Part shown: in pieces, positions 9,635 to 22,099 of the stretch
Position numbering within the stretch: position 1 is the stretch's first letter
Layout: the number at the start of each line of letters is the position of its first letter
Virus record (IMG/VR): IMGVR_UViG_3300020195_000047
Location: 1-45,077 of that record
DNA length: 45,077 bases
Direction: 5' to 3' (one strand)
DNA from: a virus
The notes under the pieces: model-generated
The model's database searches: none
What the model was told of the DNA's origin: nothing
The model's input: the letters and a program-made list of their open reading frames with translations, nothing else
Program-made: the position numbers and the translations under genes

Positions 9635-11800
9635 CTACCCCTGCTCACCAACCGGGGGCTGCTGCTGCTGCGGAGGGCCGGGCATCTGCCCCTGCGTCTC
9701 GGGAGTCATTTTATTCAACTCAGCCTGCATAAACCCTTGGTCCTGGAGCTTCTGGTACAGCCAATAGACCGAGTCCTGCGGAAGCCGCAGACGCTTGGTC
9801 TTTGACGGATCTTCGTCAGAGGGAGACGGAATCCAGGCTCCAGCGTCGATGAGAGCGCCGGACGCAGGGATAAGCCCCGCATTGTCACGCAGCGTGCGCT
9901 GACGAAGCTCCTCAGCAAGCTCCAAACGCTCGCCCTTCTGCATCGAGTAGTTCTTCTGAATGTGGGGATGCAGGTTCGCGAAGTCGCTCTCGAGCATACG
10001 GAACGAGAGACGCGACACGATGTAGGTCTGCGGCTCCTCAGGGTTGACCTGAGGCATCTCTCCGCGATCCAAGGCCAGGATCAGGTTCTTGGCGATAGTC
10101 GAGTTCATCGTCAGATCAGAGAACGCATCCTTGGCGTCGGCATACGGCATATTCTTGATAATCATGCCGATGTCTTCGCGTGAGAGCTGCTGACCTGCGT
10201 ACTGCATGAGGTGGTTCATGGTGAGCTGCTTGCCCATCAGCGTCTCAACATCGTCCGACAGCGCCTCGATGTTGATCTCAACGTCCAGATCGCGTGTGTT
10301 CTTGAACTCGCTGATGTTGATGCGCTCCTTGCTGCCAACGGCCAACACAACCGTGTCTTCCGACAGGTAGAGCTTGGCCATCTTAAGATAGAGGCGGCAG
10401 GTGCGCTGAAGGAAGCCCTCAAACCGCTTGATGTGGCGCTTGAAGATCTTCTTCTGAGACGCCGACTTGAACAGCAGGGCGTAGGGCTCGATCTGCCCGT
10501 TGGGCGCAGCGGCCGAGTCCTCCTGCATCATGGCGACCTGGTACATCTCGGTGATCTGCGACTGCATGTACTCAAGGTACTGAGAGCCAGAGCGGCCAGC
10601 CAGGATCGTGGGAGCCTGGGCGCCCTGCACGTTCACACCGCGCACGCCAGGCACCTGTCCACCAGATGTCAGCTTGCTGCCGTTGAACATGATGAGCTTA
10701 TCGTCACCAAGGGTCATCTGATGCTCTGCGATCTTAGAGGCGCAGCGGTTGATCTCAATCTGATAGGGGCGAAGCTGCTTCACGATCCCACGACCACGGG
10801 CGCTGGTCTGGATGCGGTCGAAGACCTCCATCTCAAGCGGGAAAAGGCCACCAGGCAGAACGCCCTCGTCCAAAATGCCCGTCTCAGTCGTGATGAAGTA
10901 GTAACCCTCGGGGTACTCGTAGCTGGGACGGAAGTACCACTTACGAATCAGGCACTCGTTCTTGTCGGACTTGCGATACCCACCTTGGACGTTGTCAAAC
11001 ACGAGGAAAGTACGATCCGCCGTCTCGGTGATCATCTTCTCCTTATCCTCGCCAGAGAACATCTGCTTGAGCTGGGGCACGGGAACCATCTCACGGATGG
11101 CGTACCAGGGTGAGTGCTTCAGGTTCTTGCACTCAGGCGCACGGAAGGCGTTGAAGCCGTGAACCTCTTTAAACTTAATGGCGCCAGCGAAGACAGGCTT
11201 CAGCTTGTCAGGAACAGGCTTAGTCTCGTCATCCACCTCAACCTGCTGCATGACCATAGAGAGGGTCGCAGGGTCGAAGGTAGGCTGCTCCTGCATCATC
11301 TTCTCGAAGATGGGGGCCTCCGTCTCAGGATCTAGCGCCTGCTCGTAGCCAACGAGGGCACCGCCTTGAGGATCGAAGTAGCACTCCGTCCAGACCTCGC
11401 TGATACCCACGAAGTCGTCTGCCCAGGACGAAACCTGGTCATCGTAGTCGAGCTTCTTCTTGGCATCCTGCCAAACGGCGTTGCACAGCTCTGCCGACTT
11501 ACGATCTCCGCTCTCCGCCTCATTATGGGGAGCAGCCTTCACTCCAGGAGCGTAGGTCATGATGTTATTGACGTAGGTCTTGGTAATGCGGCCAATATGG
11601 TTCTTCGTCAGCCGGATTTTCACGTCCTGCGAGAGATCCTTTGAGGTGCGAACGCGGTCGTAGAAGCGGTCGTTGGCACGGGCGTAGTGTTCGCCCGCAA
11701 TCAACAGCAAGCTAGAGCGCATATCGGCAAAAGTCGCCTTATCTACGCCCTCAGCCTCCATTGCCCACTGATTCAAGGTCGTAATCGTGGGCTTACTCAC
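9635..11800 (-). CDS. Portal protein
   Basis: This 721-residue protein forms the dodecameric DNA channel at the capsid vertex. The size, the position between terminase and scaffold, and segments such as TKNHIGRITKTYVNNIMTYA and PYQIEINRCASKIAEHQ match large podovirus portals. A Gln/Pro-rich C-terminal tail follows a helical barrel-like region. The GTG start overlaps the upstream stop (GTGA). Prediction is from length, motifs and synteny. Confidence 0.85.
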   Translation of the reverse strand: MSKPTITTLNQWAMEAEGVDKATFADMRSSLLLIAGEHYARANDRFYDRVRTSKDLSQDVKIRLTKNHIGRITKTYVNNIMTYAPGVKAAPHNEAESGDRKSAELCNAVWQDAKKKLDYDDQVSSWADDFVGISEVWTECYFDPQGGALVGYEQALDPETEAPIFEKMMQEQPTFDPATLSMVMQQVEVDDETKPVPDKLKPVFAGAIKFKEVHGFNAFRAPECKNLKHSPWYAIREMVPVPQLKQMFSGEDKEKMITETADRTFLVFDNVQGGYRKSDKNECLIRKWYFRPSYEYPEGYYFITTETGILDEGVLPGGLFPLEMEVFDRIQTSARGRGIVKQLRPYQIEINRCASKIAEHQMTLGDDKLIMFNGSKLTSGGQVPGVRGVNVQGAQAPTILAGRSGSQYLEYMQSQITEMYQVAMMQEDSAAAPNGQIEPYALLFKSASQKKIFKRHIKRFEGFLQRTCRLYLKMAKLYLSEDTVVLAVGSKERINISEFKNTRDLDVEINIEALSDDVETLMGKQLTMNHLMQYAGQQLSREDIGMIIKNMPYADAKDAFSDLTMNSTIAKNLILALDRGEMPQVNPEEPQTYIVSRLSFRMLESDFANLHPHIQKNYSMQKGERLELAEELRQRTLRDNAGLIPASGALIDAGAWIPSPSDEDPSKTKRLRLPQDSVYWLYQKLQDQGFMQAELNKMTPETQGQMPGPPQQQQPPVGEQG

Positions 11801-11991
11801 TTCTGACCTTTCTGCTTAGCCTTGTCGTCCTTGATCCGCTCTGAGATGGGCTTGTCGAGCTTGCGCATCTCCCTATACAGGCGAGCCTCCGCACGCTTCT
11901 GCCGCTCCTTCTCCAGGAGTCCCCCCATGGACTTACCTACAGGCTTAAGCTTCACTGGTTGTCCCCATTTCGTGCGTCCCCACGCCCTCAC
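11797..11991 (-). CDS. Small basic hypothetical protein
   Basis: This frame encodes 64 residues from a GTG at 11991, or 52 from the GTG at 11955. It is very basic and helical (KERQKRAEARLYREMRKLDK). It overlaps the upstream gene by 47 bases with the longer start, so the shorter start is attractive. It lies between the tRNA-like region and portal. Its function is unknown. Confidence 0.5.
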   Translation of the reverse strand: MRAWGRTKWGQPVKLKPVGKSMGGLLEKERQKRAEARLYREMRKLDKPISERIKDDKAKQKGQK

Positions 11992-12247
11992 TGGCCAACA
12001 TTTGCTCGTAACGCAGCGGATCTGAGATCATCAGCTCCGCCATACGCTGTTCTTTGACGTTCTCGTCGTCCAAAGCGTCCACTTCTTGGTCCATATCGCC
12101 ATCTAGCGGCGCCGATAGGGCGACAATTGGGGTAGGAGCCACAAAGCTCACCTCAAAGTCACCAAGTTTAAACGATGTCACACCAGATCGGCCAGCCGCC
12201 TCAATAAGTGCGACCAGATCGGCCGTTTGCTTCGTTGCCATCAGCAT
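11945..12247 (-). CDS. Hypothetical protein between terminase/tRNA and portal
   Basis: This frame encodes 100 residues, or 98 from the ATG at 12241 (MATKQTADLVALIEAAG). The C-terminal half is acidic (DENVKEQRMAELM). No good ribosome site is seen, and the upstream 47 bases separate it from the tRNA-like gene. No family is recognised. Confidence 0.55.
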   Translation of the reverse strand: MLMATKQTADLVALIEAAGRSGVTSFKLGDFEVSFVAPTPIVALSAPLDGDMDQEVDALDDENVKEQRMAELMISDPLRYEQMLASEGVGTHEMGTTSEA

Positions 12248-12294
12248 CTATTATTGTCACAGAACCCGCCGAAACGGTAGTGGCGACGTTTAAA

Positions 12295-12371
12295 TGGCGC
12301 AGAAGATAGGATTCAAACCTATGACCTTCGGCAACTTACTCCCGACGCTCTAATCCCTGAGCTACCCCTGC
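12295..12371 (-). tRNA. tRNA-like gene with irregular anticodon arm
   Basis: This 77-base cloverleaf has a 7-bp acceptor stem (GCAGGGG/CTTCTGC with two G-U pairs), a D arm GCTC...GAGC, a T arm ATAGG-TTTGAAT-CCTAT, a 5-base variable loop and an encoded CCA. The anticodon arm is 18 bases instead of 17 (TCGG...CCGA around GAGTAAGTTG), so the loop is enlarged or a base is bulged. No normal U33-anticodon-R37 pattern results; UAA or AAG are the possible readings. The T loop also lacks the usual C56. Its first base is the last base of the terminase stop codon. It may be an aberrant, specialised or decayed tRNA. Confidence 0.65.
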
Positions 12372-13705
12372 TAATACTGACTGGACCAGTAGTATAGCTC
12401 ACTATCCACGTCGTCCCGCGCCTCAAGATCGTCGCTCTTGTCAACCGGCAGCCCCCTGCGGAGGTTGTTCTCATCCTCAGACGGGGTGGGCGTGGCTGGC
12501 TCCGCCTCCTCCGGCAGCGCCTTAGTGATGTACTCCATGTCCCACGGGATCTTGGTGGTGGCGTAGCGGCACGAGGCGTCGATCAAGTCATCCTTAGCCG
12601 ACTTCTTGTTGGTCGACTTGAGCAGCCCCTCCAACTCGCGTGCCAGCTTCTCCGTGTCGCCCGAGTTGTCGTATATCTTCAGCGCGTTGTTCTTAAACAG
12701 CGTATTGACGGTCGCCTCGCCAACCTCATGACTCTTCTCAGCCGGTGCGAACGGCAGACCAAGGCGCTGAGCAATCGTCCCTAGGTCCTTCGCCGCCCAA
12801 TCGAAGAAGGCGGTGATCATCGTCAGCCCATGCGTCATCTGGATGTACTTGCGAATCACATCATCGGCAGTCGTCAGCTCCCCATCACCCCGCCACGTCT
12901 TAACGATACGAGCGCGTCTGAAGTTAGGACAGACCGCCAAGATCCCAATGGCCGAGGGGTGAGAGGTCTTGCTCGTCTCATCTCCCCCGCCCCCGTAATC
13001 AACGCCCGCATAGTAGAGCCAACTCCTCGGCACGGGGTGCCCCTTGATGATGTGCTGGCTGCGCACGAAGGTGGGGTACTTGAGGCCACTGTCGACCACG
13101 AACCTGCCGTAGACCCGACGCTGAATCTCAGCCTCAGTAGAGAGACGACGCTTCATCCTCTCAATCTTGAACTCTGGCCATAGGCCAGCGCTGCCGTCCT
13201 CAAAGAACTGACAGTCGTACATACTGATCTGCATGATCTCTACGTCGTCTTCAAGCCACTGCGTCCGGTCCTCTACGATCTCGCGCCACTCCGGCTGCCC
13301 AAGCGTCGCCGTGAACACGAAACTCATGTAGCCATCCTGCGCCTCACACCGCAGAGCCAACTCAGGATAGAGGTGAAACGGCAGCTCTTCATCGCAATGA
13401 AGCAACGCCAAGCTCCCAGCCTGAAGGTTCGAGGCATCCTGCGAATACGTGCGGAACTCAAGCGTGAACCCGTTGTTGAACACAACAGCGGCGATCCGCC
13501 CGTTAGAATATTGCTCGGCCCAACCGTGCTGGGGGCTGCTCTTAAACTCCCCCTGTGGGAGCAAGGGCATCCACTTGTCCTCGAACTCCGCAGTTGAGGT
13601 CTTGCTATCCGGGTAGACAAACCCACCCCCGGGTGGGCTTGCCACCCCGTGAGTGCAGACCAGGCCACCTCTCGGCCCACCTGTCCGTGTCGGTGATAAA
13701 GTCAA
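12371..13705 (-). CDS. terL: Terminase large subunit, C-terminal frame (ATPase end plus nuclease)
   Basis: This frame carries the terminase from about base 13620 onward; the stretch from there up to 13705 is not terminase-like and is just the open part of the frame. Visible elements are VYPDSKTSTAEFEDKW, a Walker-B-like segment LLHCDEELPF, and the RNase H-like nuclease start YYAGVDYGGGGDE. It matches the frame at 13605-13913 if one base is skipped at TTT, 13619-13621: the joined protein then reads KPTRGWV-VYPDSKT, as in related terminases. Joined length is about 513 residues, normal for the family. The shift could be a real +1 frameshift, a mutation or a sequencing error beside a GC-rich hairpin. 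Confidence 0.85.
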   Translation of the reverse strand: MTLSPTRTGGPRGGLVCTHGVASPPGGGFVYPDSKTSTAEFEDKWMPLLPQGEFKSSPQHGWAEQYSNGRIAAVVFNNGFTLEFRTYSQDASNLQAGSLALLHCDEELPFHLYPELALRCEAQDGYMSFVFTATLGQPEWREIVEDRTQWLEDDVEIMQISMYDCQFFEDGSAGLWPEFKIERMKRRLSTEAEIQRRVYGRFVVDSGLKYPTFVRSQHIIKGHPVPRSWLYYAGVDYGGGGDETSKTSHPSAIGILAVCPNFRRARIVKTWRGDGELTTADDVIRKYIQMTHGLTMITAFFDWAAKDLGTIAQRLGLPFAPAEKSHEVGEATVNTLFKNNALKIYDNSGDTEKLARELEGLLKSTNKKSAKDDLIDASCRYATTKIPWDMEYITKALPEEAEPATPTPSEDENNLRRGLPVDKSDDLEARDDVDSELYYWSSQY

Positions 13706-16556: not shown

Positions 16557-16781
16557 ATGACCAAAAAAGAGAAAAACACCGCCGCACTATTACAAGCCTA
16601 CGCAGGCAACCACGACGAGTTCATGATGCTCAAGGGCATCTTGTGCATGACGCACAGCATGGACTTCGTTGACTCCAACAAGGTCCGCGCCTTGCTGGAC
16701 ACGCAAGCTATTGCGCGTCGCTTGGATGCCTTGATCTTCGAAGACTTCGCCGCGACGGCAGCGGTGCGCAAATGCAGCTAG
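16557..16781 (+). CDS. Hypothetical early protein
   Basis: This 74-residue helical protein (MTKKEKNTAALLQAYAGNHD) is the first gene of the rightward early operon. The ATG at 16557 is preferred to a GTG at 16542. It overlaps the next gene by 10 bases. No family is recognised. Confidence 0.6.
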   Translation: MTKKEKNTAALLQAYAGNHDEFMMLKGILCMTHSMDFVDSNKVRALLDTQAIARRLDALIFEDFAATAAVRKCS

Positions 16782-17434
16782 TCACACTGGCCGAACAACA
16801 AGCCCAAGCTAGCGTCACGGCTAGCGAGGGCGGCGACACGACGACACTTAACCGTGAGGCTTGGCTTGAGCGCGCTATCGCGCTGCTGCGCCCTGACTTC
16901 GAGGACAACCAGACTCCTCTGCCAGTCCTCATCAAGGTGAGTGTCGGGTGGCCAGGAGGCAAGCGCTCAGCCAAGGCTATCGGTCAATATTGGCCGCCTG
17001 CGCTATCGACTAACGATATCCCTCAGATTTTCATTAGCCCTGTAATCGAGGACCCTGTACGCGCTCTGGACATCCTAGTTCACGAACTAGTTCACGCGGC
17101 GACGCCGGGAGATGGGCACGGTAAGGCATTTAAACGATGCGCTTTGGCTATGGGACTGGAGGGCAAGATGACGGCTACCGTCGCTGGACCTGGCCTAACG
17201 GCTAGGCTTACGCTACTGCGCACAGCGCTTGGAGAATATCCTCATGGCGCGCTGCGCGAGGGAGCGAGAGCGACGCCGAAACAAGGCACTAGGCTCCTCA
17301 AGGCTTGCTGCGATAGCTGCGGCTACACAGTGCGCGTCACTATGAAGTGGCTTGACCTTGGTGCGCCTCTTTGCCCTGTGCATATGTCGCCGATGAGTGT
17401 GACCTTGCCCGAGACGGAAGGCGAGGACGCATGA
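16772..17434 (+). CDS. SprT-like zinc metallopeptidase
   Basis: This is a 220-residue protein. Residues about 97-116 carry the metallopeptidase site: ILVHELVHAA with the HExxH-type motif, then GDGHGKAFKRC with the third metal ligand. The C-terminus is a zinc ribbon (ACCDSCGYTVRV and LCPVHMSP). This arrangement is that of SprT/Spartan-like proteins, which cleave proteins bound to DNA or act near transcription. Phage copies are common but of unknown target. It heads the early operon that also contains the ubiquitin-like cassette. The ATG overlaps the previous stop. Confidence 0.85.
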   Translation: MQLVTLAEQQAQASVTASEGGDTTTLNREAWLERAIALLRPDFEDNQTPLPVLIKVSVGWPGGKRSAKAIGQYWPPALSTNDIPQIFISPVIEDPVRALDILVHELVHAATPGDGHGKAFKRCALAMGLEGKMTATVAGPGLTARLTLLRTALGEYPHGALREGARATPKQGTRLLKACCDSCGYTVRVTMKWLDLGAPLCPVHMSPMSVTLPETEGEDA

Positions 17435-19175: not shown

Positions 19176-19382
19176 ATGGCTAAAAATATCATTGCTCAAA
19201 CCCTTGGTGGCGACAAAAAAGTTTTCGATGACGTGACGACTGTTGCCGAAGTGCAAGCAAAGCTTATGCCGTTGCTCGGCGACGGCTACCAAGCGTCGAT
19301 TAATGGCGACACTGCCAGCGCCAGCGACGTGCTGGAGGACGGCGACGTAGTCACGTTTGCGCGTCAAGTTAAAGGCGGTTAA
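19176..19382 (+). CDS. Ubiquitin-like (beta-grasp) modifier ending in Gly-Gly
   Basis: This 68-residue protein has a beta-grasp pattern: strand (KNIIAQTLGGDKKVF), helix (VAEVQAKLMPLL), strand (YQASINGDTA), LEDGDVVTFARQ, and a bare C-terminal VKGG. The LxDGDxVxF segment before the final Gly-Gly is typical of ThiS/MoaD and of prokaryotic ubiquitin-like proteins. Because Gly-Gly is already terminal, no maturation cut is needed. The next three genes encode E2-like, JAB and E1-like proteins, so it is probably activated by the E1 and attached to targets. A strong AGGAAG site and a private promoter suggest high expression. It resembles the small protein C of PRTRC cassettes. Sulfur-carrier function is the alternative. 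Confidence 0.8.
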   Translation: MAKNIIAQTLGGDKKVFDDVTTVAEVQAKLMPLLGDGYQASINGDTASASDVLEDGDVVTFARQVKGG

Positions 19383-19393
19383 TTGTCCTTTAA

Positions 19394-19437
19394 GCCGCGC
19401 TTAGCTTGTTTGGTCATGAGCTAGGCGCGGCTGTTTT
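19394..19437 (+). terminator. Intrinsic terminator/attenuator inside the ubiquitin-like operon
   Basis: GCCGCGC and GCGCGGC pair perfectly, extended inward by a T-G pair and TAGCT/AGCTA to about 13 bp, followed by TGTTTTC. It stands 12 bases after the ubiquitin-like stop and before the E2-like gene. It should make the modifier mRNA much more abundant than the enzyme mRNA. Confidence 0.75.
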
Positions 19438-19455
19438 CATAAATCATGACCAAAC
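19408..19455 (+). promoter_or_regulatory. 12-bp inverted repeat pairing the terminator loop with downstream RNA
   Basis: GTTTGGTCATGA (19408-19419), almost all of it in the terminator loop, is exactly complementary to TCATGACCAAAC (19444-19455). This can form a pseudoknot on the terminator, or a competing hairpin that takes up its 3' arm. Either could set read-through into the E2/JAB/E1 genes. Confidence 0.55.
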
Positions 19456-19481
19456 CCCTCACATGAGGAGATAGGCACATC

Positions 19482-20561
19482 ATGACCACGACGACCTACC
19501 TCGCCGACCTTACGCGAGACGACTACAGGCTTGGCCGCGCCACGTTTGGCGACGACGCCACAGCTACGCTCGGCTACCTGCGCAATCTATGCGCTAACGC
19601 CGACACTGACCCCGCTACACTCGACATTGCACCTTACCTGGCAAGCCCGACGCAGCTCTTGGTGCGCCGAGGAGCTGTTAACCAAAGGTTCTTTGCCGGG
19701 CTGCTTAGTGGCGAGGAGCAAGCAACCACTAGATCAGCCGACACGCTTGAGACGTTTAAACGGCTTCAAGCTTCCTCAGAGACGACTATCAAAGCGTACT
19801 CTGACAACCTCAAGCGTAGCCTTAGAGACGACTACACACGTTCTGTGACTCAGCTAAAGCAAGCGCAGGACGCTATGCGAGCGCGGCTTTCTGAATACCA
19901 GAACCGCTATCAGGCTTACCTGGCCGTTTCCAAAATCGAAGGCGATTCGACCATTGCCGTCACTAACCTCAAAGCGCTAGCGGATGAGATGCAGCACCCT
20001 TTTTGGACACAGTGTGACGAGAATAATGATGGCAGTTTCGACCTACTCACACAGGAGATCACGATAACAATCCCTGTGCAGCGCACACAGGAGTTTTACA
20101 AGTGGAACCTAGGGCGCTTCATTGTGAACCTCAAAACAGGCAACAGAGACATTAAGGTGCGCCAGCAATGGGCTGCGCCAGACGCAGCTAGTGACGCTGA
20201 GAAACGAAATGGCTACAGCGAGCGCACAGGCGCGTATCTATGGCAAACATTTCACCCGTTCCTGTCGCGTGGCTCAAACAATGCGCGCCGTCTATGCGTC
20301 GGCGGGGAGGCTATGCGGTATGAGGAGATGTTTGACCAAGGCGCACTTGGAGGCATGTTAGCTATCACGCGACAAGTCCTAAGCCATTACGACCTAGACA
20401 CAGCACCACATATCTCGCCTTGGGATGAGATCAATGCGTTTAAACAAAAGCTTGCGCTGGAGAAGCGCAACAATCCACTAACGACCGAAGGTCATGTCCA
20501 ATCGGAATGGAGACTCACACATCATGTCACACAAGCTCGTAATTCCTCGCTCAGTTTATAA
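19482..20561 (+). CDS. Putative E2-like conjugating protein with coiled-coil N-terminus
   Basis: This is a 359-residue protein. Residues about 85-150 are a long charged helix. A beta-rich region at 190-250 leads to TFHPFLSRGSNNARRLCVGG (residues 256-275). The His-Pro followed after about a dozen residues by Cys-(Val/Leu)-Gly is the signature around the catalytic Cys of E2/UBC-fold proteins, here Cys272. With a ubiquitin-like gene upstream and JAB and E1-like genes downstream, an E2-type carrier is the best guess. The overall similarity is too weak to be certain; a structural or substrate-binding role is the alternative. GAGGAG precedes the ATG. Confidence 0.5.
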   Translation: MTTTTYLADLTRDDYRLGRATFGDDATATLGYLRNLCANADTDPATLDIAPYLASPTQLLVRRGAVNQRFFAGLLSGEEQATTRSADTLETFKRLQASSETTIKAYSDNLKRSLRDDYTRSVTQLKQAQDAMRARLSEYQNRYQAYLAVSKIEGDSTIAVTNLKALADEMQHPFWTQCDENNDGSFDLLTQEITITIPVQRTQEFYKWNLGRFIVNLKTGNRDIKVRQQWAAPDAASDAEKRNGYSERTGAYLWQTFHPFLSRGSNNARRLCVGGEAMRYEEMFDQGALGGMLAITRQVLSHYDLDTAPHISPWDEINAFKQKLALEKRNNPLTTEGHVQSEWRLTHHVTQARNSSLSL

Positions 20562-21354
20562 AGAGATTATGTTTTATGTCCGTGAATCGGACGTGGAAAT
20601 TAGCGGCCTAGGCACTTGCGCCTACGACCAAGCAACGAAGACGTTTAAAGTAGGCCGCATCGTTCTGTGTGAACAGGAGAATGGACCGACGGAAACCAAT
20701 CTGTCTCCGGCGAGTATCGCCAAGGCTATGCATGAGCTACGCAATGAGCCCGACACGCTGCGATTTTGGTGGCACAGCCACGTCAATATGGGCGTTTTTT
20801 GGTCTGGCACCGATCAAATTGCTATGCGCGAGCTATCAGAGCATGGATGGTTTATGGCCACAGTGTTCAACAAAAAAGCCGAAATGAAGTCATGTGCTTC
20901 ATTTCCCACGACGTTTGGCCAAATGCAGCTTGATGATATGGCCACAGAGATCGAAGACACCGTTGACGACACGCAAGCCGCTACCTGGAGAGCCAGCATG
21001 GCCGAGCGGTGCAAGCGGGTGAGCTTTGGCGGTGCTATGGGAAAGTCTCCAAGCGTGTTTCAAAGCAGCCGTCACTATCACGGCTACGACGATTGGAACA
21101 GTCAAGATCTTCTCCCTGGAATAGAATCTGGGACCAAAGACGCCGACCTTCTAAAAAAAGAAAAAATCACGACCTACAAAGATAAGCTTTATGCGGAAGC
21201 TGAGAAGAAGGTTGGCGCAATGAGCGCCGACGCTTCTGTTATCGCGCTGCATAAGCTGGAAAATAAGCAGCAAGTGCATGGACACCTTTCGATGCAGGAA
21301 GATGCAGAGCTTGAAGCCCTGCAATGGCTTTGGGGAAATGGAGTTAGGAACTAA
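20524..21354 (+). CDS. JAB/JAMM metalloprotease (deubiquitinase-like)
   Basis: This is a 276-residue protein. The full JAMM site is present: Glu25 in VEISGLG and HSHVNMGVFWSGTD (His84, His86, Ser94, Asp97), exactly HxHx7SxxD. Such zinc enzymes cut isopeptide or C-terminal bonds of ubiquitin-like proteins. Since the modifier here already ends in Gly-Gly, deconjugation is the likelier role. The C-terminal 150 residues are an added helical region of unknown use. The ATG at 20524 fits the domain start; one at 20494 is also in frame. It overlaps the upstream gene by 38 bases. Confidence 0.88.
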   Translation: MSHKLVIPRSVYKEIMFYVRESDVEISGLGTCAYDQATKTFKVGRIVLCEQENGPTETNLSPASIAKAMHELRNEPDTLRFWWHSHVNMGVFWSGTDQIAMRELSEHGWFMATVFNKKAEMKSCASFPTTFGQMQLDDMATEIEDTVDDTQAATWRASMAERCKRVSFGGAMGKSPSVFQSSRHYHGYDDWNSQDLLPGIESGTKDADLLKKEKITTYKDKLYAEAEKKVGAMSADASVIALHKLENKQQVHGHLSMQEDAELEALQWLWGNGVRN

Positions 21355-21355
21355 T

Positions 21356-22099
21356 ATGAATCTCACGAGACAACATGACACACTACCGAGCGCCACATTA
21401 GACGCTCAAATTAGAGTTATCGGCGCGGGTGGCATCGGCTCCTGGTCAACGCTTTCGCTTGCCAAGCTTGGGTTTAAACGCATCGAAGTCGTAGACTTTG
21501 ACACGGTCGATGAGGTTAACATCCCAAGCCAAGTTTTCTCTATGAGCCAAGTGGGCAAGCCCAAGGTCACAGCATTGTACGACGTGGTCAAGCTACTGAC
21601 CGACACGGCGATTGTTGAGAAGCAGGAGCGATACGCCGAGCTTCTCCCCTGCGATATTCTCGTTGTCGCGGTTGATAACATGGCCGTTCGTAAGCAGATA
21701 GCCGAAGACCTTTTAGGCGGGCGGCTGACGGCCCGCTGGATTGTCGATGCTCGAATGGCAATCGAGACAGGCATTATCAAGCCCTACAATCATGAGACGG
21801 TTAAACGGTATTTAAACGACCTCTACACCGATGAGCAGGCGGCCAGTGAGCCATGTACCAATAAGGCTATCGCTTACACGACCTTGGTCATTGCAGGGCT
21901 TGTGTCTAAGACTGTGTGTATGCTTCTGCGACACAACGCTGTACTGCAAACAAGTTTTTGCCTTGAGTATGGACCTACGCAGAGCCCGCAATTCATGACT
22001 CACACTAAGGCTCCTACCGTGTTCGTTGCGCCTATAGAGGACACCGTAGGAGACGAGGACGAGGAGCAGAATGAGGATGAGGCGTCGGATGGATTTTAG
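21356..22099 (+). CDS. E1-like ThiF/UBA adenylyltransferase
   Basis: This 247-residue protein would adenylate the modifier's C-terminal Gly. It has the nucleotide-binding loop VIGAGGIGSW (residues 21-30), VVDFDTVDEVN (Asp47, Asp49), GKPKV with the ATP-contacting Lys, and VVAVDNMAVRK. The usual NxxRQ is NIPSQ, so one ATP-binding Arg is missing, as in some divergent family members. Cys167 in EPCTNKAIAY is the best candidate for a catalytic thiol. The C-terminus is very acidic. The ATG follows the JAB stop by one base with AGGA upstream, so the two are co-translated. Confidence 0.88.
   Translation: MNLTRQHDTLPSATLDAQIRVIGAGGIGSWSTLSLAKLGFKRIEVVDFDTVDEVNIPSQVFSMSQVGKPKVTALYDVVKLLTDTAIVEKQERYAELLPCDILVVAVDNMAVRKQIAEDLLGGRLTARWIVDARMAIETGIIKPYNHETVKRYLNDLYTDEQAASEPCTNKAIAYTTLVIAGLVSKTVCMLLRHNAVLQTSFCLEYGPTQSPQFMTHTKAPTVFVAPIEDTVGDEDEEQNEDEASDGF

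Follow-up and report, generated by a model that had tools for sequence, protein, structure and literature searches.

Ubiquitin-like protein conjugation occurs in eukaryotes, in archaea and in bacterial operons, some of them anti-phage. Bacterial operons that bring a modifier, an E2, a JAB peptidase and an E1 together include the PRTRC cassettes, classed by Iyer et al. (2006; PMC1779556) as operon type 6d, and the Bil (bacterial ISG15-like) operons, BilABCD (PMC11354881). Lambda-like and T1-like phages pair a ubiquitin-like domain (tail protein I) with a JAB peptidase (tail protein K) (PMC1779556). Here, we describe a cassette carried by the IMG/VR virus record IMGVR_UViG_3300020195_000047, the entire 45,077 bases of which are referred to as the window; the record gives no completeness. 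At 19176-22099 on the plus strand of the window, genes for a modifier, an E2-like protein, a JAB peptidase and an E1 stand in immediate succession, and we put at roughly three in four the probability that they encode a viral, reversible ubiquitin-like conjugation system.

In gene content (modifier, E2, JAB and E1) the cassette is like Bil, and it is like PRTRC in having a small modifier, an E2-like protein, a JAB peptidase and a ThiF-type E1 in one operon, with the modifier leading and E2, JAB and E1 following in that order. An initial annotation of this sequence had related it to both; the likeness in content holds, but profile checks against PRTRC and comparison of architectures with Bil make the cassette a member of neither. 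The PRTRC and viral E1s are clearly homologous (hhalign 8e-20), whereas the modifier and E2 profiles give no alignment beyond a short GxxCxG motif, and the likeness of the JAB proteins is confined to the active site. The score of the window E1 for PRTRC_ThiF, 46 bits, lies below the cut-off of 144.75. With only the E1 aligning well, and with no PRTRC ParB-family, E or F gene in the viral neighbourhood clustering (the F profile was without a match), PRTRC membership was rejected. BilA has two fused ubiquitin-like domains, whereas the window modifier is a single 68-residue domain and L022 alone among its relatives has two; BilD has an inactive and an active adenylation domain and a Cys domain, whereas the viral E1 has one domain in 247 residues; and the CEHH motif that follows the Cys of BilB is not conserved there in the viral E2 alignment (PMC11354881). 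Bil membership was rejected on these architectures of modifier, E1 and E2, by comparison with that description.

The archaeal SAMP system (SAMP2, UbaA and JAMM1) supplies the modifier's best match in the PDB, SAMP2, and one of the JAB matches, JAMM1, and its E1 is single-domain like that of the viral cassette. The SAMP system is not known to employ an E2, and the E2-superfamily core of the viral cassette sets the two apart. The lambda-type pair likewise joins a phage-encoded ubiquitin-like domain to a JAB peptidase, but those clusters are described without an E1 or E2, lie in tail operons, and have their JAB fused to an NlpC/P60 domain. In its proposed workings the cassette resembles a minimal ubiquitin-like system, but it lies outside any named one. 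No report of phage-encoded cassettes of this type was found in the open-access papers searched, and earlier mention elsewhere is possible.

The four cassette proteins and their families

The four adjacent genes lie in the place, strand and reading frames given in the initial annotation, and the set that it proposed is borne out by profile searches, structure prediction and some 30 viral loci. Single-sequence scans against Pfam matched the E1 to ThiF (1.5e-19; one ThiF domain only), the modifier to ThiS (4.5e-4) and the JAB to Prok-JAB (4.2e-4), the last two slightly short of the curated cut-offs, and gave no meaningful match for the 359-residue E2-like protein; scans against NCBIfam, PHROGs and PADLOC returned superfamily-level matches only. 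As a leave-one-out check, profiles were made from the relatives without the window sequence and searched for the window genes. They recovered the JAB (E=5e-69), the E1 (E=2.6e-63), the modifier (E=3.2e-21) and the E2-like protein (E=2.5e-7), values that far exceed chance.

The modifier gene (19176..19382, +) encodes 68 residues ending in VKGG, and its product is predicted to be a beta-grasp protein of the ThiS/SAMP2 type. Searched against the PDB, the family profile found SAMP2 as its closest match (2.7e-6) and made weak contact with tail tip assembly protein I (E=0.42). The last Gly (G67 as numbered in the alignment) is invariant in the 24 aligned relatives. Most relatives' modifiers continue for 1 to about 25 residues beyond GG/GA and a few stop exactly there, as the window's does, while in L022 (8260-8673) the gene encodes two tandem ubiquitin-like units, each VKGG-terminated, resembling a small polyubiquitin. 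Such variable tails and tandem units are the expected look of a precursor processed by a peptidase.

The E1 gene (21356..22099, +) encodes a minimal enzyme of the ThiF/UBA5 type, 247 residues long from the better start (the open reading frame opens at 21278). It has the expected nucleotide loop, GxGGIG, and Cys167 (codon 21854-21856). Positions R5, GxGxxG, D47, N55, Q59, K70, D107 and C167 are invariant in 27 of 27 E1 sequences. The family profile matched UBA5, Uba1 and ThiF in the PDB, all at about 1e-16, and MoeB is also among the proteins that the E1 resembles. A tree placed PRTRC and bacterial ThiF/MoeB proteins apart from the viral set with weak support (82%).

The JAB/JAMM isopeptidase gene (20524..21354, +) encodes 276 residues from the better start, its open reading frame opening at 20494. 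Its HxHx7SxxD motif and catalytic Glu are exact, as annotated (E25, H84-S-H86, then x7, S94-xx-D97), and all 30 sequences have E25, H84, S85, H86, S94 and D97, a set that takes in every metal-binding and catalytic residue. Rpn11 (4.8e-7) was matched by the family profile in the PDB, in addition to JAMM1.

The E2-like gene (19482..20561, +) encodes 359 residues, with a long, helical N-terminal part and a C-terminal UBC-type core (19971..20423, +; residues 164-314, the envelope of the leave-one-out profile match) that contains HPF at 258-260 and Cys272 (codon 20295-20297). In the 29 aligned relatives this Cys is invariant (29/29), the Pro of HP is present in 28, and an invariant Gly (G274) and a G-x-F strand are further shared features; the commonest family motif is HPH...GxxC[WL]GN. 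When the family profile was searched against all PDB sequences, nearly all the entries found were ubiquitin-conjugating enzymes (UBE2L3, UBE2A, Ubc4, UBE2D), the sole others being adenylosuccinate lyases, and the best alignments begin at the first helix, take in HPN and extend to the Cys, placing the viral residue opposite the catalytic one. The best E-value was 0.011 and each is by itself marginal, so it is the near-exclusively E2 composition of the list, not any single E-value, that makes the call persuasive.

The AlphaFold model of the window protein (predicted local distance difference test score, pLDDT, 74) has a long helix, a beta-meander, the Cys region and two helices. Because Foldseek gave no significant match for this model, a relative nearer the consensus, L003, was also modelled (pLDDT 86.6, core mostly above 90). 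Its best PDB match was a chain of the TRIM21-Ube2W complex (probability 0.93, E=0.03), with RWD-domain proteins and bacterial E1-E2-Ubl complexes ranking lower. An E2-superfamily core in this family is therefore well supported by the leave-one-out match, by the E2s in the PDB search and, more weakly, by the L003 model, although the E2-like assignment had been called the weakest part of the annotation; for the window member the assignment depends on that of its family. The window protein is divergent, and for that reason retrieved no relative when it alone was the query in a viral scan. The regions fused to the core differ widely in length and content between relatives. One family member matches Pfam Pentapeptide (5.7e-31), and the E2-like protein of L009 (8355-9998), which apparently has N-terminal pentapeptide repeats, is an example of a variable fused region. 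In L002, a second E2-core gene (11600-12352; E=1.5e-23) lies immediately downstream of the E1 gene.

Distribution among viral contigs, prokaryotes and cultured phages

A scan of 2.9 million viral contigs (IMG/VR) with the JAB as query yielded 31 loci, of which L028-L030 are one and the same stretch, leaving about 29 distinct; the cassette had been thought unusual for this phage, and is instead recurrent. In nearly all of them an E1 lies beside or near the JAB, and the genes upstream encode first a small protein that terminates in VKGG or a similar sequence and then one about 290-810 residues long. Presence or absence was scored with a profile for each of the four families: all 31 loci have the E2 core, 29 have the E1 (the remaining two contigs stop inside the JAB gene), and 30 have the modifier (weakly in L024; the exception has its upstream part cut off). 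The cassette is thus complete at every locus not truncated by a contig end. Its usual order is modifier, E2, JAB, E1, permuted in five loci (L016, L017, L022, L023 and L025). Outside the cassette, neighbourhood clustering found no gene family common to more than seven loci; since the flanking genes are mostly unrelated, it is the cassette that is conserved, rather than a single phage lineage as a whole. A scan of 84,980 prokaryotic genomes, made with one single peptide pattern and so not exhaustive, gave two matches, both on small contigs of metagenome-assembled genomes.

Among GenBank phages, tblastn gave no match for the window JAB and E2-like proteins or for the relatives' JAB and E2 core, and only the E1 search reached cultured phages. 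E1-related loci were found in Flavobacterium phages of the Fpv1 group, crAss-like Steigviridae, a Dulem virus, and Xanthomonas and Erwinia jumbo phages. The E1 has a significant relative in crAss-like phages, Fpv1 and Xanthomonas phage PhiXhv-12, as does the JAB except in PhiXhv-12, where an E2 core (1.3e-7) lies within an 892-residue protein adjoining the E1. The crAss-like and Fpv1 JAB copies inspected carry HxHx7SxxD. The product of a neighbouring gene in these phages can be aligned with the E2 core (hhalign E=5.3e-5, probability 67%) and contains the motif HSH...C[LI]G. In the crAss-like loci an upstream gene has KSG[GAT] (KSG[GA] or SSGT) after an N-terminal domain; its product is longer than the modifier, continues past the motif and has no significant similarity to the modifier. 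Searches of the PDB with profiles of the modifier-like and E2-like proteins from crAss-like phages gave nothing of use. In L037, L038, L040 and L050 (crAss-like Steigviridae and related phages) relatives of the E1 and JAB, a protein with the HSH...C[LI]G motif and one bearing KSGA or SSGT lie next to uracil-DNA glycosylase and primase genes. A divergent form of the cassette in crAss-like and Flavobacterium phages is probable. Database labels for the crAss-like, Fpv1 and PhiXhv-12 genes read thiamine biosynthesis protein, metalloprotease domain or hypothetical, and neither ubiquitin nor ThiF is mentioned in the main text of the crAss-like phage papers examined for these terms.

Locus organization and phage context

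The start of the JAB gene overlaps the end of the E2-like gene, and the E1 gene starts just past the JAB stop codon. Between the modifier and enzyme genes lies a terminator-like hairpin (19393..19432, +), with a stem of 17 pairs followed by GTTTTCATAA (-30.1 kcal/mol, z = -5.3 against shuffled sequences). Standing 3' of the modifier gene, it is possibly a partial terminator, through which the modifier could be made in excess over its enzymes. A perfect 12-nt inverted repeat (GTTTGGTCATGA / TCATGACCAAAC) at 19413-19455 overlaps the loop of this hairpin, so two alternative RNA hairpins are possible, in the manner of an attenuator. The cassette had also been credited with its own promoter; no sigma-70-type promoter upstream of it passed the promoter scan. 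A TTGACARGCGG element flanking the cassette on both sides was considered and rejected, its occurrence being at chance level.

The window encodes a P22-like portal, a large terminase, a primase and a helicase, and no integrase was found among the subset of its open reading frames that was scanned. The description of the virus as a lytic-type podovirus is only partly supported by these genes and by the integrase result, the latter as far as that subset reaches. The large terminase (12371-13705) has no tblastn match at 1e-5 among 50,697 phage records, which indicates a phage distant from sequenced ones. Upstream of the cassette is a SprT-like metalloprotease (16772-17434; phrog_6361, 5e-40), and at 1060-2814 a protein with a sigma-70 region 4 domain is followed by an L,D-transpeptidase-like protein (YkuD_2, 2.3e-24). 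Near the cassette, Pfam, NCBIfam and PHROGs scans recognized no gene of the thiamine, molybdopterin or cysteine pathways and no sulphurtransferase. No defence gene was found adjoining it, and PADLOC matches are at superfamily level only.

Proposed mechanism, alternatives and significance

In the conjugation system that we propose, the single-domain E1 would adenylate the C-terminal Gly of the modifier and probably load it on Cys167, from which it would be handed on to Cys272 of the E2 core and attached to lysines of host or viral proteins. The long N-terminal extension of the E2 core, variable among relatives, probably aids the choice of target; we take the fused regions as target selection because they differ so greatly. 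The JAB would remove the modifier and, in relatives with residues after GG, also mature the precursor. As the window modifier already ends at GG while the JAB is conserved, the window JAB is most likely a deconjugase. Gene content, homology, fold-level relationship, invariant catalytic residues and conservation of the cassette are established. From homology we infer each catalytic step, from E1 through E2 to lysine, and the same caution applies to lysine as the acceptor, to N-terminal targeting, and to a possible role in host takeover or in modifying the phage's own proteins.

This proposal is favoured by the completeness of the cassette at untruncated loci that share so little else, by the invariant JAB, E1 and E2 catalytic residues, and by the E2 profile and L003 fold matches. 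The likeness of the JAB to Rpn11 and JAMM1, and of the modifier to SAMP2, itself a protein modifier, points the same way, as do the relatives' modifier tails, the tandem units of L022 and the lack of recognized thiamine, molybdopterin or cysteine pathway genes nearby. Several observations weigh against it. The window E2 deviates from the consensus of its family (HPF for the usual HPH, CVGG for C[WL]GN), which makes its own activity less certain than that of the family; its model lacks the significant Foldseek match noted above, and the L003 match is only weakly significant (E=0.03). In addition, a profile of the C-terminal half of the E1 found no match in the PDB, leaving Cys167 unmatched to a known catalytic Cys. 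Going further, we hold at about even odds that the cassettes form an undescribed, largely virus-specific lineage of complete reversible conjugation systems, spread across many unrelated tailed phages and with a divergent form in gut phages of the crAss-like group, and that they tag proteins of the host or the virus in the course of infection by way of an E2 core carrying a rapidly changing targeting region.

Defence systems directed at competitors are found in some phages, and the cassette might be one, tagging proteins of rival phages as Bil would, or might act in counter-defence by drawing on a conjugation system of the host. The gene content, which is the same as that of Bil (PMC11354881), speaks for such a role; we nevertheless consider it unlikely, given E1 and modifier architectures unlike those of Bil, the near confinement of the cassette to viral contigs, and surroundings in which no defence gene adjoins it. 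A sulphur-carrier pathway would have the ThiF-like enzyme activate a ThiS/MoaD-like carrier, which the JAB would trim or release as happens in mycobacteria in the CysO-Mec+ pathway to cysteine; sulphur would then be relayed by the Cys protein to a metabolite, tRNA or DNA base. The modifier's Pfam match is indeed ThiS, the E1 resembles ThiF and MoeB, and modifier, E1 and JAB without a UBC domain are known from sulphur pathways (PMC1779556). Here, however, every locus has an E2-superfamily core that contains an invariant Cys, the modifier's closest PDB match is SAMP2, and no acceptor-pathway or sulphurtransferase gene was recognized nearby, whereas the bacterial ThiF relatives inspected often lie in thiamine operons, so that this reading seems quite improbable. 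We are similarly doubtful of a part for the modifier and JAB in building the tail or head, comparable to that of tail proteins I and K of lambda-like phages, with the E1 and E2 joining the modifier to a virion protein. The pairing of a ubiquitin-like protein with a JAB peptidase in lambda- and T1-like phages (PMC1779556) and the weak touch of the modifier profile on tail tip assembly protein I would fit this role, but the lambda-type clusters are described as having neither an E1 nor an E2, the plus-strand cassette lies on the opposite strand to the portal and terminase genes (minus strand, 9.6-13.7 kb), and the related crAss-like locus lies amid primase, uracil-DNA glycosylase and exonuclease genes.

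Returning to reversible conjugation, a complete modifier, E1, E2 and JAB set kept together across many phages suggests that bacterial viruses use such tagging themselves, and some phages probably run their own reversible protein tagging during infection. The 'thiamine biosynthesis protein ThiF' labels in phage genomes may often be wrong, and the family supplies new compact E2 cores joined to varied partner regions. What phages tag, and why, becomes directly testable, cultured Flavobacterium and Xanthomonas phages included.

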